64,000 bases of DNA, taken from positions 1-64,000 of the IMG/VR virus record IMGVR_UViG_3300046368_000687. One strand, 5' to 3'. The position numbers were made by a program, and so were the translations under genes. This stretch comes from a virus. Positions 24,331 through 30,316 of this stretch are shown here, one piece after another. The notes beneath the pieces were generated by a model, which did no database searches, was not told the DNA's origin, and saw only the letters and a list, made by a program, of their open reading frames with translations. Positions within the stretch are counted from its first letter, which is position 1, and every line of letters starts with the position of its first letter.

Positions 24331-24358
24331 TTGACAACTTTAAATAGTGTGTTACAAT
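24331..24358 (+). promoter_or_regulatory. Sigma70-type promoter
   Basis: A consensus -35 TTGACA (24331-24336) and a TACAAT -10 (24353-24358) are separated by 16 bases. Transcription would start near 24365, giving a very short leader with TTAGGAT before the ATG at 24378. It is unusual inside a block of late genes. Confidence 0.7.
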
Positions 24359-24377: not shown

Positions 24378-24542
24378 ATGGCACTACCATTAACAGGCGA
24401 AACGATTACAATGACGCAAATTAGGAACTACTTCGGTGGTTCTTCAACGCCGATTACTATGTCTGGGCTTGGTGCGTTTCTCGGAATTTCAGCAGGAACT
24501 ACTATTGCAATGAGTGCTACATTTGGTGGACAAGGATTATAA
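24378..24542 (+). CDS. 54-aa fibre-associated protein
   Basis: A short frame starts ATGGCACTACC and ends at TAA 24540-24542. The product begins MALPLTGETITMTQIRNYFG and continues with GGSSTPITMSGLGAFLGIS, ending ATFGGQGL. This matches a recurrent short phage module, often seen at the N-terminus of tail-fibre proteins (LPsSG.IslsqI...fGgss...sls), here standing alone. It lies behind its own sigma70-type promoter and 13 bases before the next gene. Its role is unknown. It may be a fibre cap or adaptor, or a leftover of a fibre gene. Confidence 0.65.
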   Translation: MALPLTGETITMTQIRNYFGGSSTPITMSGLGAFLGISAGTTIAMSATFGGQGL

Positions 24543-24555
24543 ATAGGAGCACACT

Positions 24556-24933
24556 ATGAAAAGTTTATACGAAGTTATTAATATTGACTTAGCAAATGAC
24601 TATACTAAAGAACGCAAAAAGGAAGTTACAACATCACTTAATCTTGATGAAGATCTTCAAGCAGAAGTTTTTGCAGTAATTGACGAAATGGATATTCCAA
24701 ATGATGACGAACGTCATCATTGGATTAACGTAATTGCACATAAAGCAGCATCTGACTTATTAACACTTGGTAAAGTACAGCCTGAAAATATGGTAGTTAT
24801 GAGTTCGCTATCAGAAGAAGATTTTACCGAAGCAGTAACTATTGCAGTTAAAAAAGCAAGAACACTAAACGACCAAACTGTTGCAGCAGAAGCAAATCTT
24901 AACGTAGATACTATTTCAGAAACTATTACTTAA
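24556..24933 (+). CDS. Unknown acidic 125-aa protein
   Basis: The protein (MKSLYEVINIDLANDY...) is helical and acidic, with Asp/Glu-rich and Ala-rich segments and no clear domain. It follows ATAGGAG and its stop overlaps the next ATG (TAATG), so it is coupled to the glycosyltransferase that follows. I do not recognise it. The context suggests it belongs with the glycosyltransferase pair, perhaps as a partner or a small virion protein. Confidence 0.6.
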   Translation: MKSLYEVINIDLANDYTKERKKEVTTSLNLDEDLQAEVFAVIDEMDIPNDDERHHWINVIAHKAASDLLTLGKVQPENMVVMSSLSEEDFTEAVTIAVKKARTLNDQTVAAEANLNVDTISETIT

Positions 24934-25508
24934 TGAAAATTGCAATATGTGTAGCGGCAAGAGATCTTGTCCATGCAGGATTTGCCTTGTCTTTAGCAAA
25001 GATAGCAAAAACAATTGATTGCGAATTATTACTTAACTTAGGTACTGTAATTCCTCAACAACGTAATCAGTTGATAAAAGAAGCACTTGAAAAACAGTGT
25101 TCTCATATTTTGTGGCTAGACAGCGACATGCATCTTCCTGAAAACACAGCATTGCAATTATTAAAACACGATAAAGAAATTGTAGCTGCCAGCTACAGTA
25201 CAAGGATGCCACCCTATCAAAGTGTAGCATTTACAGATTCTAACGACCTCTCTCTAAGACTAAATGAGTCAACAGGGCTGCACAAAGTTTGGGCAGTTGG
25301 TATGGGGTGCATGTTAGTAAACACAAAAGTATACGAATATCTAGATTGGCCATGGCATCAATATATTGAACACAAAGAATCGCAGTCGATAATGGGTGAA
25401 GATATATACTTTTGTAAAAATGCAAACGATGCAGGGTTTGACATTTATATCGATGCAACACTAAGTAAAAATGTTGCACATTACGGAACTAAGAGTTTTA
25501 AATTATGA
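24933..25508 (+). CDS. GT-A type glycosyltransferase, 191 aa
   Basis: The protein has the start of a GT-A fold (MKIAICVAARDL, a Rossmann-like strand), a Q-Q-R-N helix, and a DXD-type motif D63-S64-D65 (LWLDSDMHL), followed by AVGMGCMLVN and GEDIYFCKNANDAGF. The E/D-D pair near the end is where the acceptor base would sit in GT2-like enzymes. It lacks membrane segments. Its ATG overlaps the upstream stop and its stop overlaps the next start (ATGA), so it is tightly coupled to the 1471-aa repeat protein. Donor and acceptor are unknown. Confidence 0.8.
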   Translation: MKIAICVAARDLVHAGFALSLAKIAKTIDCELLLNLGTVIPQQRNQLIKEALEKQCSHILWLDSDMHLPENTALQLLKHDKEIVAASYSTRMPPYQSVAFTDSNDLSLRLNESTGLHKVWAVGMGCMLVNTKVYEYLDWPWHQYIEHKESQSIMGEDIYFCKNANDAGFDIYIDATLSKNVAHYGTKSFKL

Positions 25509-28500
25509 GAGCAGTTGACAGATTTGAACAACGAAGTAAAACAGTGTATAATGGACAAGATGTTTTAAAAAATCATTTTTTACATGGATATCCAAAGCAC
25601 TATACTGATGATACAATGGATTATAGTATTGTTGAACAATATAAAGACCACGACTACGTTTGGATTATTGATAAACGTATCGAAACACTTAGAACGTTTC
25701 CGTGGCATTTTAAACCTACTACCCTTGGCGAATACAAATTTCCATATGTATACAAACGTAGTAAAAGAATACTTAGTTGGGAAAAAGTTAAACTAGTACC
25801 AACAAAGCCTTATACAGATGTGTTTGAGGAAAAGCATATTTGTGCAAAATATGATGTACTTGCAGGTAAGACATCGTTTGATGTTTTCTACGGTATAACA
25901 TATGCAGAAGCACAAGAAAAAACTACAACTGATATGTTTTGGTTAGTTCCTGATGACGTTGAAGTAAGTGATTTTTTTAAGTTTACATACATGCCTGACG
26001 ATTGGAGTCAAAAGTATGTGCATGTATTTCGTAACGGAGACAAAGAAAACAAAGACGGAATTATACTTGCTCCAAAAAATTATACACCAACCGATAATGA
26101 ATTACTACACAGGTTTTATGCAGAGAAAAAAGAAATTAGTATTCTAGCAAGTAGACCAAAACCGTTTCCTGCATATTCATTTAGTACATATGAAGAATAT
26201 ACTAATGCTATTGATAATTTAGAAGTTGATATGTGTTGGTGGATACCTGATGATGTAGATATAAATTCTGAATTTGAGTTTATGTATATACCTCACAGCA
26301 ATCAATATGATAGACATATAAATCATGTCTTTTTAAACGGTGATAGTTACGATGGTGTTATGTTACTAAGCAAATATTGTAGAATTAGTGAGCGTGAATT
26401 CAGACATCGATTCTTAGGAGTAAAAAAAGAACACGAGGTAGTAGCAAGTCTGCCAAAAAAGTTTGATACGTTTGTAGTAAATAACTATTCAGATTACAAA
26501 CGTGCAATGAAGAATAGCAGAACAGAAATGTTCTGGAGTGTTCCAGATGATGTAAAATTAACAAACGATCTAAATTTATATTTTTCGCATCACGATATGT
26601 ATAATAGAAATATTACACATGTGTTTAAAAATAACAACACATATGACGGTGTAGCACTATGCAGTAAAAATATAGAAATTACTAGGAAAGAAATTGAACA
26701 CCGTTTTTATTCAGAAAAAAAAGAACACAACATAATCTATAGTACTCCAAAAACATTTGATTATTTTGAAATAGAAACATACGAAGATTATCTAGAAGCT
26801 AAAGAAAACTCAACAACTGATATGTTTTGGATGAGCAGTCCGCAACTTAGAATATATCAAAAGTGCTTAGACGAGTTTTACATTAGTCACCATAATATAA
26901 TTGATCGAAATCAAACTCATGCATTTTTGCACAGTTGTGATGATAAAATATGCTTCAACGGTGTTTTTCTTATACCTAAAAAAATTACACTTACTGAAAA
27001 CGAAATTTTACACAGACATCCTGTAAATAGAAAAGAACACAATACAGTGTTTAGTATACCAGCGCCATATGAGTATTTTCAAATTGACTCGTATGACGAA
27101 TACTTGTATGCACTTGAAAATTCTAAAACAGAAATGTTTTGGATGAGCAGTCGAAATATTAATACTAGTCAATTTGATTTTGATTTTGTTTTTAATCATA
27201 CAGACACATATGACAGAAATATAAACCATGCTTACCTGCACAAAATTGATGATAATGAATACTTGTTTAATGGTCTATTTTTATGTAGCAAAACTTGCAC
27301 ACTTACACAAAAAGAAGTTGAACACCGACATTTAGCAAAAGTAAAACAACATAGTACATTAGGTAGTACCGTAATTGTGTATAATAAATTTGTTATCGAT
27401 ACTTACGACGATTACTTATATGCACTTGAAAACTCTAAAACAGAAATGTTTTGGGGCGTTGGTAGTAACCTAAAAGACTATGACGATTTTGATTTTGATT
27501 TGTACTTTTCTCATAATAACAGTTATGATAGAACATCGAATCATGCGTTTTTAAATCAAGGTTACGAAAACGTTGATTATAATGGTTATTTTCTGTTTAG
27601 CAAACATAAGACAGTTACACAAAAAGAAATTGAACACAGGCATATTGTAAATGCAAAAGAATGGGATATTGTAGCAAGCTCATATGGCGACTATGATATA
27701 TGTTTTGTTGATACCTACGACGAATATTTAAAAGCAATGGACGAAAGTATTACTGAACTCTTTTGGGCTGTAAGTCGTAATATTAATATCGATAACTATG
27801 ATTTTGACTTAGCATTTGATCATCATAATACATACGATAGATTTCAAAATCATACATTTATTCACAATGCAAAAGGTCAACAAACACGCAACGGAGTATT
27901 TTTATTAAGTAAACATAAACCAATTACACAAAAAGAAATTGAACATAGACACTTAGTTGATGCTAAACATTGGGATATTGAAGCCAGTCAAGAATGCATT
28001 TATAATATGTTCCTTGTTGAAACTTATAACGATTACCTTGACGCAATGGAAAATAGCGATACTGAAATGTTTTGGGGATATAGTAATAATATCGATTTTT
28101 CAGAATTTGACGAAAGCGAATATTATTTTTCTCATGATAACTTTTATGATCGAAATATTAATCATACATTTGTACATTTGGTTGGAGACTTTGAATATCG
28201 CAATGGCATGTTTTTGTTTAGTAAACACGCACCAGTTACACAAAAAGAAATTGAACATAGGCATTTAGTAAAAGCAAAGCATTGGGACGATATTGCAAGT
28301 TTTCCTGTAAACTATCAAAAGTTTGTTATAAACAATTACAACGATTACTTAGCAGCTATGCAAAATTCAAAAACTGAAATGTTTTGGGCAATACCTAGTG
28401 ATGTTGAAGTTGATATTAATTTTGAATTTGATTTATACTTTACACATGATAATACTTACGATAGAAATATTACACATATCTTTAAAAACGGAGAACATTG

Positions 28501-29920
28501 GGATGGTGTTGCACTATTTTCAACACATTCGCCTGTAACGGAACAAGAAATTAATCACCGTTGGTATGCTCATAGAAAAGAACATGATGTTATTATAAGT
28601 CAGCCAAAACCATTTCCAGTTTATAATATTGAAACTTATGATGATTATCTTAATGCATATGATACATCGCCCTCAGAGATGTTTTGGGCAACAACTCCAA
28701 ATATTAAAATTAATGAAGACTTTGATTTAAGTTTATATTTTAGTAGACACAACAGCTATGATAGAACAATAAATCATACGTTTATACATAGAGTAGACGA
28801 TAACGATTATCACAATGGATTATTCTTATGTACTAAACACGCTCCGTTAACTGAAAAGGAAATTGAACATAGATTAATTGCTCGTAGGAAAGAACACGAT
28901 GTTGTTGCTAGTGGTCCTGTGCAATACGAAAAGTTTGTTATTAATACATACAAAGATTATGAAAACGCAATAAAGAAATCTAAAACAGAAATGTTTTGGA
29001 TGATTCCACCAGAAGTAAATGTAAGTGATGATTTTAAATTTGATTTATATTTTACACATAATCAATGGTTTGAAAGAGAAACAAATCATGTGTTTTTAAA
29101 TGGCGATGCTAGAGACGGGATAAGTCTAATCAGTAAAACTAGTCCAGTTACACAGCGTGAAATAGATATGCGTTTCTTAACCAACAAAAAAGAATACAAT
29201 GTAGTTGCAAGTACACCTACACTTTATGATATTGTGTTTATTAGCAAAGATGAAGAACATGCAGATAATAATTATAAATTATTAACTGATAGATTTCCTC
29301 GTGCAAAACGTGTACATGGAGTAGAAGGTATTCATGCTGCACACATTGAAGCTGCAAAGTTGTGTAAAACTGATATGATTTGGATTGTTGATGCTGATGC
29401 CGAAATAGTAGAAAACTTTAACTTTGATTATTACGTGCCGGCATACGACCCTGATAGTAGAAAAACTGTACATGTATGGAAATCACAAAATCCAGTAAAC
29501 GGATTGATATACGGATACGGTGCTGTAAAATTACTTCCAAGAGAACTTACATTAAATATGGATACTAGCAAACCAGATATGACAACTAGTATTAGTCCAC
29601 TGTTTAAAACAATCAATCGTATTAGTAATATTACTAAATTTAATACAGATGAATTTAGTACATGGCGTAGTGCGTTTAGAGAATGTGTAAAACTTGCCTC
29701 AAGAGCAATCGATGGGCAGTTAGACGAAGAAACAGAATTTAGATTAAATGCATGGTGTACTAGAGGCAAAGATAAACAGTTTGGCAATGCGGCGATTAAC
29801 GGTGCTAATCACGGCAAAAAATACGGAGAATCTAATAGAGGCAAATTAGAAGCTCTAGTAAAAATTAATGACTTTAATTGGCTACGCAATGAATTTGATA
29901 AGTTCAAAAATAGTTTGTAA
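25505..29920 (+). CDS. 1471-aa protein of tandem degenerate glycosyltransferase-like repeats
   Basis: I do not recognise this protein as a named family. It has about 13 tandem copies of a 96-104-aa unit: a degenerate first copy (residues 50-120), eleven clear copies starting near residues 125, 221, 320, 418, 522, 626, 730, 833, 937, 1037 and 1141, and a last copy from about 1241. Each clear copy has (T)Y.(D)Y..A...S.TEMFW, then a YDRN..H.F segment, N/DG..L.SK, and T..EI.HR...KEH.. .AS. The last copy is the longest and has a full GT-A-like start with WIVDADAEI near 1293-1301, where a DXD motif sits; in copies 1-3 the same place reads (V/I)PDDV, and in most later copies no DXD-like pair is left. 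A helical tail follows from about 1350. No signal peptide or membrane segment is seen. The gene overlaps the upstream glycosyltransferase by 4 bases and, at its 3' end, the opposite-strand NUDIX gene by 39. Confidence 0.75.
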   Translation: MRAVDRFEQRSKTVYNGQDVLKNHFLHGYPKHYTDDTMDYSIVEQYKDHDYVWIIDKRIETLRTFPWHFKPTTLGEYKFPYVYKRSKRILSWEKVKLVPTKPYTDVFEEKHICAKYDVLAGKTSFDVFYGITYAEAQEKTTTDMFWLVPDDVEVSDFFKFTYMPDDWSQKYVHVFRNGDKENKDGIILAPKNYTPTDNELLHRFYAEKKEISILASRPKPFPAYSFSTYEEYTNAIDNLEVDMCWWIPDDVDINSEFEFMYIPHSNQYDRHINHVFLNGDSYDGVMLLSKYCRISEREFRHRFLGVKKEHEVVASLPKKFDTFVVNNYSDYKRAMKNSRTEMFWSVPDDVKLTNDLNLYFSHHDMYNRNITHVFKNNNTYDGVALCSKNIEITRKEIEHRFYSEKKEHNIIYSTPKTFDYFEIETYEDYLEAKENSTTDMFWMSSPQLRIYQKCLDEFYISHHNIIDRNQTHAFLHSCDDKICFNGVFLIPKKITLTENEILHRHPVNRKEHNTVFSIPAPYEYFQIDSYDEYLYALENSKTEMFWMSSRNINTSQFDFDFVFNHTDTYDRNINHAYLHKIDDNEYLFNGLFLCSKTCTLTQKEVEHRHLAKVKQHSTLGSTVIVYNKFVIDTYDDYLYALENSKTEMFWGVGSNLKDYDDFDFDLYFSHNNSYDRTSNHAFLNQGYENVDYNGYFLFSKHKTVTQKEIEHRHIVNAKEWDIVASSYGDYDICFVDTYDEYLKAMDESITELFWAVSRNINIDNYDFDLAFDHHNTYDRFQNHTFIHNAKGQQTRNGVFLLSKHKPITQKEIEHRHLVDAKHWDIEASQECIYNMFLVETYNDYLDAMENSDTEMFWGYSNNIDFSEFDESEYYFSHDNFYDRNINHTFVHLVGDFEYRNGMFLFSKHAPVTQKEIEHRHLVKAKHWDDIASFPVNYQKFVINNYNDYLAAMQNSKTEMFWAIPSDVEVDINFEFDLYFTHDNTYDRNITHIFKNGEHWDGVALFSTHSPVTEQEINHRWYAHRKEHDVIISQPKPFPVYNIETYDDYLNAYDTSPSEMFWATTPNIKINEDFDLSLYFSRHNSYDRTINHTFIHRVDDNDYHNGLFLCTKHAPLTEKEIEHRLIARRKEHDVVASGPVQYEKFVINTYKDYENAIKKSKTEMFWMIPPEVNVSDDFKFDLYFTHNQWFERETNHVFLNGDARDGISLISKTSPVTQREIDMRFLTNKKEYNVVASTPTLYDIVFISKDEEHADNNYKLLTDRFPRAKRVHGVEGIHAAHIEAAKLCKTDMIWIVDADAEIVENFNFDYYVPAYDPDSRKTVHVWKSQNPVNGLIYGYGAVKLLPRELTLNMDTSKPDMTTSISPLFKTINRISNITKFNTDEFSTWRSAFRECVKLASRAIDGQLDEETEFRLNAWCTRGKDKQFGNAAINGANHGKKYGESNRGKLEALVKINDFNWLRNEFDKFKNSL
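25877..29500 (+). repeat. Twelve-copy tandem protein repeat (TEMFW/EIEHR units)
   Basis: The unit is about 300 bp. Copies 5 to 9 are the most alike (for example YDDYLYALENSKTEMFW in copy 6, and nearly the same in copy 5), so the array probably grew from the middle. Copies at both ends are more diverged, and the last is the only one with a complete DXD site. A further strongly decayed copy can be traced before the array, around residues 50-120. Confidence 0.85.
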
Positions 29921-30316
29921 TTTTTGTTGGTTAGTTTTGCTACGAAGTGTATTTGCTAATCCGTTATGAAGCGGCTTGGGCCATTTGCTAAAAGTTGCCC
30001 AAGCATAGCCGTCGTGCTCATCATTTAATTTTGGAATAAATTCTTCTTTAATTACACACAAATATGTATGAAAATTAAAAGTATCGTCGTTACTAACAAA
30101 TGTTTCTAATGGAATAAGTTTTACAATATCAGGTACATCTCCAATTTCTTCAGAAATTTCTCTTTGTAAGCCTTCCCACGGTGTTTCTTCTTTTTCGTTT
30201 TTGCCACCAACTAACCCCCAAACGTTTTTATTCTTACTTTGTATTCTATGTAAGAATAAAAATCGATTAGTATCCAATGTATAGAATAGCGCACCGCTAC
30301 ATATAATCTTGCTCAT
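29882..30316 (-). CDS. NUDIX hydrolase
   Basis: This 144-aa protein has a complete Nudix box at residues 38-60: G38-x5-E44-x7-R52-E53-I-S-E56-E57-I-G59-D60, the Mg-binding loop-helix-loop that cleaves nucleoside diphosphates linked to another moiety. The preceding strand and WGLVGGK are typical of the family. The substrate is not predictable. Candidates are damaged dNTPs, capped RNA or sugar nucleotides, and the last would fit the glycan genes in this genome. It lies 8 bases after gp15 on the leftward strand and its 3' end overlaps the 1471-aa gene. Confidence 0.9.
   Translation of the reverse strand: MSKIICSGALFYTLDTNRFLFLHRIQSKNKNVWGLVGGKNEKEETPWEGLQREISEEIGDVPDIVKLIPLETFVSNDDTFNFHTYLCVIKEEFIPKLNDEHDGYAWATFSKWPKPLHNGLANTLRSKTNQQKLQTIFELIKFIA

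Follow-up and report, generated by a model that had tools for sequence, protein, structure and literature searches.

An IMG/VR virus record (IMGVR_UViG_3300046368_000687) raises the question of what a phage might do with a glycosyltransferase-like domain that is preceded by a long series of what appear to be disabled copies of the same domain. The window analysed here comprises the first 64,000 nucleotides of this 98.5-kb record and includes a 1471-codon open reading frame that is stop-free throughout. Copies of the encoded protein at 94-100% identity are present in independent IMG/VR contigs, indicating that the frame is not an assembly artefact.

Anatomy of the array protein

The protein consists of a degenerate N-terminal stretch, 11 tandem units and a C-terminal GT-A-like domain (Table 1), in agreement with the tandem design put forward in a first-pass annotation of the sequence. 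MFW-type motifs recur at residues 143, 243, 341, 439, 543, 647, 751, 854, 958, 1058 and 1162, followed by MIWI at 1291, and the units extend from about residue 112 to about 1231-1240 at a spacing of 98-104 aa. An HMM built from the 11 units alone scored each of them at 95-149 bits, which is circular because the same units went into the model, the direct evidence being the spacing and the motif order; this HMM also matched the C-terminal domain (iE 3e-6). The decayed copy thought to open the protein is moderately supported over residues 30-110 (hhalign score 29.3, P=9e-5, against 25.2 for the best of 30 shuffles), and the N-terminal region is conserved among the tail-locus relatives compared. 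The last unit had been placed at residues 1241-1360; its GT-A identity was upheld (see below), but the domain runs to residue 1471 with a conserved helical tail.

Table 1. Coordinates of the array gene, its parts and the adjoining features in the window
Feature	Position	Strand	Evidence or remark
Sigma70-like promoter TTGACA-N16-TACAAT, TG before -10	24331..24358	+	directly after tail-fibre gene, ahead of operon
54-aa ORF, MALPLTGETITMTQIRNYFGG...	24378-24542	+	ORF call
125-aa gene, PHROG 1409, first full-size operon gene	24556..24933	+	in 24 related loci
191-aa Anp1-like GT-A glycosyltransferase, LDSDM motif, 4-bp overlap with array gene start	24933..25508	+	adjacent in 25 related loci
Array protein, whole ORF, 1471 aa	25505..29920	+	ORF call, copies in other contigs
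N-terminal region, residues 1-111, probably strongly degenerate unit	25505..25837	+	hhalign, moderate support
Unit 1, residues 112-211, D type, DxD site PDDV	25838..26137	+	HMM, type calls
Unit 2, residues 212-309, D type	26138..26431	+	HMM, type calls
Unit 3, residues 310-407, D type	26432..26725	+	HMM, type calls
Unit 4, residues 408-511, N type	26726..27037	+	HMM, type calls
Unit 5, residues 512-615, N type	27038..27349	+	HMM, type calls
Unit 6, residues 616-719, N type with one D-type position (n)	27350..27661	+	HMM, model, type calls
Unit 7, residues 720-822, N type	27662..27970	+	HMM, model, type calls
Unit 8, residues 823-926, N type	27971..28282	+	HMM, model, type calls
Unit 9, residues 927-1026, D type	28283..28582	+	HMM, type calls
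Unit 10, residues 1027-1130, N type	28583..28894	+	HMM, model, type calls
Unit 11, residues 1131-1240, D type, cap adjoining catalytic domain	28895..29224	+	HMM, model, type calls
C-terminal GT-A-like catalytic domain (predicted) and helical tail, residues 1241-1471	29225..29917	+	profile, alignment, model
DxD motif D1296-A-D1298	29390..29398	+	both Asp invariant, 81/81 aligned sequences
NUDIX hydrolase, convergent, overlaps array gene 3' end	29882..30316	-	Pfam/PHROGs, loci comparison; constant neighbour in tail-locus relatives

A scan of IMG/VR with a profile of the C-terminal domain recovered at least 599 stretches and at least 590 confirmed loci, 146 of which were kept for comparison; IMG/VR records are often fragments. 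The array genes occur either at a tail locus, as in the window, or, in a second class, among glycosyltransferase-like, UDP-sugar dehydrogenase and radical-SAM/SPASM genes (main group: 99/146 loci). Unit number across the related proteins ranges from 0 to 16, the 146 loci including stand-alone enzymes of ~230 aa and proteins with 1, 2, 3, 4 and up to 16 units; other proteins are fused to a second paralogue, of 305 aa, that has the same motifs. Major capsid proteins 79-88% identical to that of the window (99% in one truncated match) were found in records of both gene contexts, which places the tail-locus and cluster contexts in a single phage clade. A tail-locus array and a cluster array coexist in each of three records, of 236, 256 and 330 kb.

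Homology of the units to a GT-A domain

Profile-profile comparison (hhalign) of 222 distinct units with 81 C-terminal domains gave a probability of 96.8, P=3.8e-10 and a score of 54.7, compared to scores of at most 21.5 for column-shuffled controls (n=20). As judged by this comparison, the units and the C-terminal domain are homologous. AlphaFold2 models of residues 1028-1471 (units 10-11 and the C-terminal domain; 81 sequences) and of three units reached pLDDT 93.6 and 94.6 and pTM 0.83 and 0.84, respectively, with the relative placement of units predicted to be well defined. In these models each unit follows the order beta-alpha-beta(MFW)-beta-helix-beta-beta-helix-long beta. The C-terminal domain shares this order but inserts one more alpha-beta step behind its first strand and adds ~90 residues of helical tail. 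The modelled units thus correspond to the C-terminal domain minus alpha1-beta2 (one beta-alpha element) and the tail.

Foldseek searches with the model containing the C-terminal domain matched 95 PDB chains at E<=0.001 (best 1.7e-6), and the 50 best matches listed for the C-terminal-domain model are glycosyltransferases. The modelled C-terminal domain has a GT-A nucleotide-binding fold, as had been supposed for the last unit. The best PDB matches of the units alone were GT-A enzymes, below significance (E 0.06, prob 0.90); Foldseek TM scores were low because the alignments cover several units. The first-pass annotation had regarded the internal units as having the fold of the last one, and the shared element order and the sequence homology point this way; the nearest solved structures are all GT-A but are not significant by themselves.

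The C-terminal domain shares its GT-A core and DxD with GT2 and GT27 enzymes (ppGalNAc-T, RmlT, WrtF, SunS, K4 chondroitin polymerase), to which Foldseek aligned it with probabilities of mostly 1.00 (E 2e-6 to 1e-4). It differs from them in that a PDB sequence search with the array protein found no significant match to a solved structure, and in that the window domain, at 12.9-14.3 bits, falls below the Pfam GT2 cut-off of 23.3. Domain-database searches returned weak GT2 signals, a single relative (L146, 29.8 bits) passing this cut-off. We know of no GT2 or GT27 GT-A enzyme among those compared in which dead copies of the enzyme core form an array. The ppGalNAc-transferases possess one catalytic GT-A domain and non-catalytic domains that may hold the acceptor. 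The array protein resembles these and similar enzymes in pairing a catalytic GT-A domain with accessory non-catalytic domains (roles that are predicted here), but their accessory domain is an unrelated lectin fold, whereas the array protein employs its own degenerate core in up to 16 copies.

Loss of the catalytic motif

The DxD motif that is invariant in the C-terminal family is absent from the units. Its first Asp is gone in 283 of 284 distinct units, being replaced nearly always by S, P, W, T, Y or F, and the one unit that has Asp at this position lacks the second, so that none of the 284 keeps both; the description of the units as mostly inactivated therefore holds. The PDDV reported for the first three units was found in units 1-3, where the first Asp is replaced by Pro and the second is retained, whereas units 4-11 have other residues at this site, such as SPQL, SRNI, GSNL, PSDV or PPEV. 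The array protein contains a single DxD-bearing domain, compared to the two catalytic domains of a K4CP-type polymerase.

Unit types and array growth

Three unit positions co-vary: the site of the second Asp is D/E or N, the position that follows the HxF strand is N or H, and the one preceding the conserved Gly is D or N. The Fisher p values for this association, 4e-58 to 8e-38, are inflated by kinship among the units. These positions were used to call two unit types, D and N. The co-variation may reflect two ancient unit clades rather than a pocket, and the conserved unit residues could equally represent unit-unit contacts.

Most tail-locus proteins conform to DDD-N(3 to 10)-DND-GT (9, 10, 11 and 16 units) and most proteins of the other class to D-N(0 to 5)-d-GT, with deviating unit orders in a few proteins (for example, L022, L047, L055 and L116). 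A best-match analysis indicates that the first, third and last units are mostly positional orthologues across the four main tail-locus proteins (57-76% identity), and that interior units are lineage-specific duplications, units 5-7 of L015 being 79-88% identical and three-unit blocks of L022 up to 92%. The array therefore has caps and grows in the middle; in the sequences compared, only interior N units expand and the end units are fixed. The two unit types and the capped grammar are new here.

Selection and arrays without a catalytic core

Relative to L003 and L004 (dS about 0.5), dN/dS was 0.05 and 0.07 for the units and 0.05 and 0.03 for the catalytic domain, and no stop codons were seen in the close relatives compared. 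Every unit is strongly constrained by this measure, and not decaying. Duplication of interior units that lack a catalytic DxD might be expected of neutral tandem duplicates heading for decay, but dN/dS of 0.05-0.07 across the units contradicts neutral decay, and the reading frames of close relatives are free of stops with residues conserved in a unit-specific manner, leaving this explanation with a negligible probability.

Arrays are also maintained where the enzyme is missing. The tail-locus protein of the 236- and 256-kb records (845-codon frame; 845 aa) comprises the N-terminus and seven units followed by a stop, and no remnant of a catalytic domain was found between this frame and the NUDIX gene in either record. 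The 845-codon array has a dN/dS of 0.064 between the two lineages (dS 0.39). In the 330-kb record, a 532-aa protein passes from a DxD-less last unit directly into the helical tail, the catalytic core being absent. Elsewhere, each of the three records encodes a further array protein whose catalytic domain is intact. The persistence of arrays without a catalytic core in three records indicates that array function is independent of an enzyme in cis, and the strong preservation of the array, even where the active copy is lost, that it must have a job of its own.

These relatives also argue against the processive glycosylation machine that the first-pass annotation had considered, framed here as an array that would measure or thread a polymer or tail fibre during repeated sugar addition. 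A variable number of units between fixed ends would suit such a ruler, but tail-fibre length shows no trend with unit number over the few points at hand (3577 aa with 11 units, 3924 with 9, 3943 with 16 and 3377 with 7), and together with the existence of relatives lacking the catalytic core this makes a processive or ruler enzyme very improbable.

Genomic context

The closest matches to the tail sheath of the window phage come from large myophages, PA5oct and Atu_ph07 among them (<60% identity), and close relatives of the phage reach 330 kb; the 98.5-kb record is probably a fragment of a T4-like giant phage. The array gene is the last of a tightly packed plus-strand set (54-aa ORF, 125-aa gene, 191-aa enzyme, array gene) that is preceded by a tail-fibre ORF of 3577 aa containing an S74 chaperone domain and that faces the NUDIX gene and a tail sheath stabiliser. 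The 191-aa product, previously described as an intact GT-A enzyme, is plausibly so, given its match to the Anp1 family (31.3 bits; cut-off, 28.8) and an LDSDMH motif. The 54-aa ORF is apparently a shortened homologue of a 672-aa protein in L016 (L016:4909-6924) and a 347-aa protein in L015, which occupy the same position between tail fibre and array operon.

The single sigma70-like match in the window is not above chance, its support being conservation seen by eye: similar TTGAC(A/C)...TAnnAT sequences stand at the same place in the divergent relatives L018, L041 and L116; in L016 and L015 such a sequence lies between the operon and the additional gene. Since a similar sequence recurs at the operon start in divergent relatives, expression of the operon may be separate from that of the tail genes. 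A match to the T4-type late promoter core (TATAAATA) located 11 bp before the operon was rejected as a candidate as it overlaps the stop of the 54-aa ORF, is not conserved in L004, L015, L018 and L116, and belongs to a motif that is rarer than chance in the window (3 occurrences compared to 9.2 expected); the phage may use another late promoter.

In tail-locus relatives the array lies between the giant tail-fibre gene and the genes for the tail sheath stabiliser and sheath, a position that would suit a virion component, either a stiff stalk or a surface decoration on the tail or fibre whose tip binds or modifies glycans, and the well-defined placement of successive units in the models would be consistent with this role. 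We consider it unlikely, however, as sugar clusters of the same clade encode homologues at a distance from virion genes, and as the array belongs to an operon of its own, with a candidate sigma70-like promoter and coupling to an enzyme gene.

Five large records have 13-21 Pfam radical-SAM matches each. In the records of L031, L042, L056, L049 and L079 (G005, G003, G004, G006 and G010, respectively), radical-SAM genes are largely clustered around a cluster-type array or C-terminal-domain gene. Twelve radical-SAM genes have been reported in one T4-like marine environmental virus (PMC5332604), fewer than the 13-21 per record seen here, and the pelagimyophage host recognition cluster holds glycosyltransferases and radical-SAM cassettes (PMC7029224). 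Both represent the same kind of neighbourhood as that of the array family; neither the array protein nor the C-terminal family is described in the available portions of the two papers.

Radical-SAM genes are not constant partners of the array, as none lies beside the tail locus of the window and the rest of the 98.5-kb contig has one weak candidate only. This counts against an enzyme-assembly scaffold, whose units would dock partner proteins (another glycosyltransferase or a radical-SAM enzyme) and so gather a multi-enzyme pathway, as does the presence of old active-site positions among those conserved. The association of the array gene with glycosyltransferase-like and radical-SAM genes elsewhere in the family, and the persistence of the array without a catalytic domain, speak in favour of such a scaffold, and we regard it as possible but improbable.

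Proposed role of the array

We would give an even chance to the array being a rigid scaffold in which pseudo-glycosyltransferase units provide multivalent binding, in most cases accompanied in cis by a predicted catalytic glycosyltransferase. Among the roles proposed at the outset a multivalent glycan-binding scaffold fits best, the co-variation of former active-site positions being suggestive in this respect. The ancestor was probably a stand-alone GT-A enzyme of ~230 aa, a form still common in related phages. A copy of the enzyme core would have lost its DxD, one beta-alpha element and the helical tail, and tandem duplication of this disarmed core ahead of the intact enzyme would have resulted in a rod made up of pseudo-enzymes, fixed at its end caps and able to expand in the middle. 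The three co-varying positions fall, in the alignment, on the former active-site region; we infer that each unit retains a re-purposed pocket there and binds one repeat of a repetitive ligand, probably via the altered donor/acceptor site. Based on the gene neighbourhood, the likeliest ligand would be a glycan or glycosylated protein resulting from the phage's own sugar-modifying genes, such as a tail fibre or surface glycan of the host; the array may also bind protein rather than glycan. The array would hold the acceptor, and the C-terminal glycosyltransferase, or one acting in trans, would modify it. More tentatively, and at somewhat less than an even chance, we propose that a family widespread among uncultured T4-like giant phages has converted a glycosyltransferase into a capped, expandable array with two pocket types, a rigid rod that is functional without cis catalysis and would offer a phage-encoded glycan/radical-SAM pathway a multivalent platform for binding or assembly.

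Dead enzyme copies are known. To our knowledge, no description exists of an array under selection that varies in length, contains as many as 16 dead copies of the core of its own enzyme and has caps as well as two types of unit, and a literature search found no such array. The family represents a natural repeat-protein scaffold on the GT-A fold, in which related proteins form a graded series from an enzyme with 0 units to an array without enzyme, and gives a handle on what marine giant phages do with their large clusters of sugar and radical-SAM genes.

Distribution and related families

With at least 590 environmental loci, the array family is currently invisible to annotation. The window protein, whole or in parts, had no significant match in Pfam, PHROGs or NCBIfam, none of which has an entry for the family. 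A tblastn search of 50,697 phage records found no match to the whole protein, the C-terminal domain, a short relative or the 305-aa paralogue; the tail sheath, used as a positive control, found matches. Structural matches to three units were obtained in BFVD for A0A6J5LK21 and A0A6J5L5L5 (E 8e-10 and 1e-8), unannotated proteins of uncultured Caudovirales phages with 14% identity in the alignment that are, on this structural evidence, probably members of the array family.

The second paralogous family of ~305 aa (VDGDN, NGLxYGNGG and FREGVKM motifs) is located beside, or fused to, the C-terminal-domain family at L064:3679-4605, L146:1368-2276 (minus strand) and many other loci, and the L064 copy has no match in Pfam, PHROGs or the phage records. 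In two proteins (L093:4990-8340 and L081:5038-7719), both glycosyltransferase paralogues are fused and are joined at the C-terminal side to an array built from short 'DLRKAVxExNLHSLFRLLGD' repeats, with another domain of ~200 aa also C-terminal. Three family contigs (L144, L145 and L146) are placed inside bacterial MAGs (Neomarinimicrobiota, Rickettsiales and Bdellovibrionales). The L144 and L145 genomes contain a capsid protein 79-85% identical to that of the window, suggesting that these contigs are probably phage sequences binned with the MAGs.
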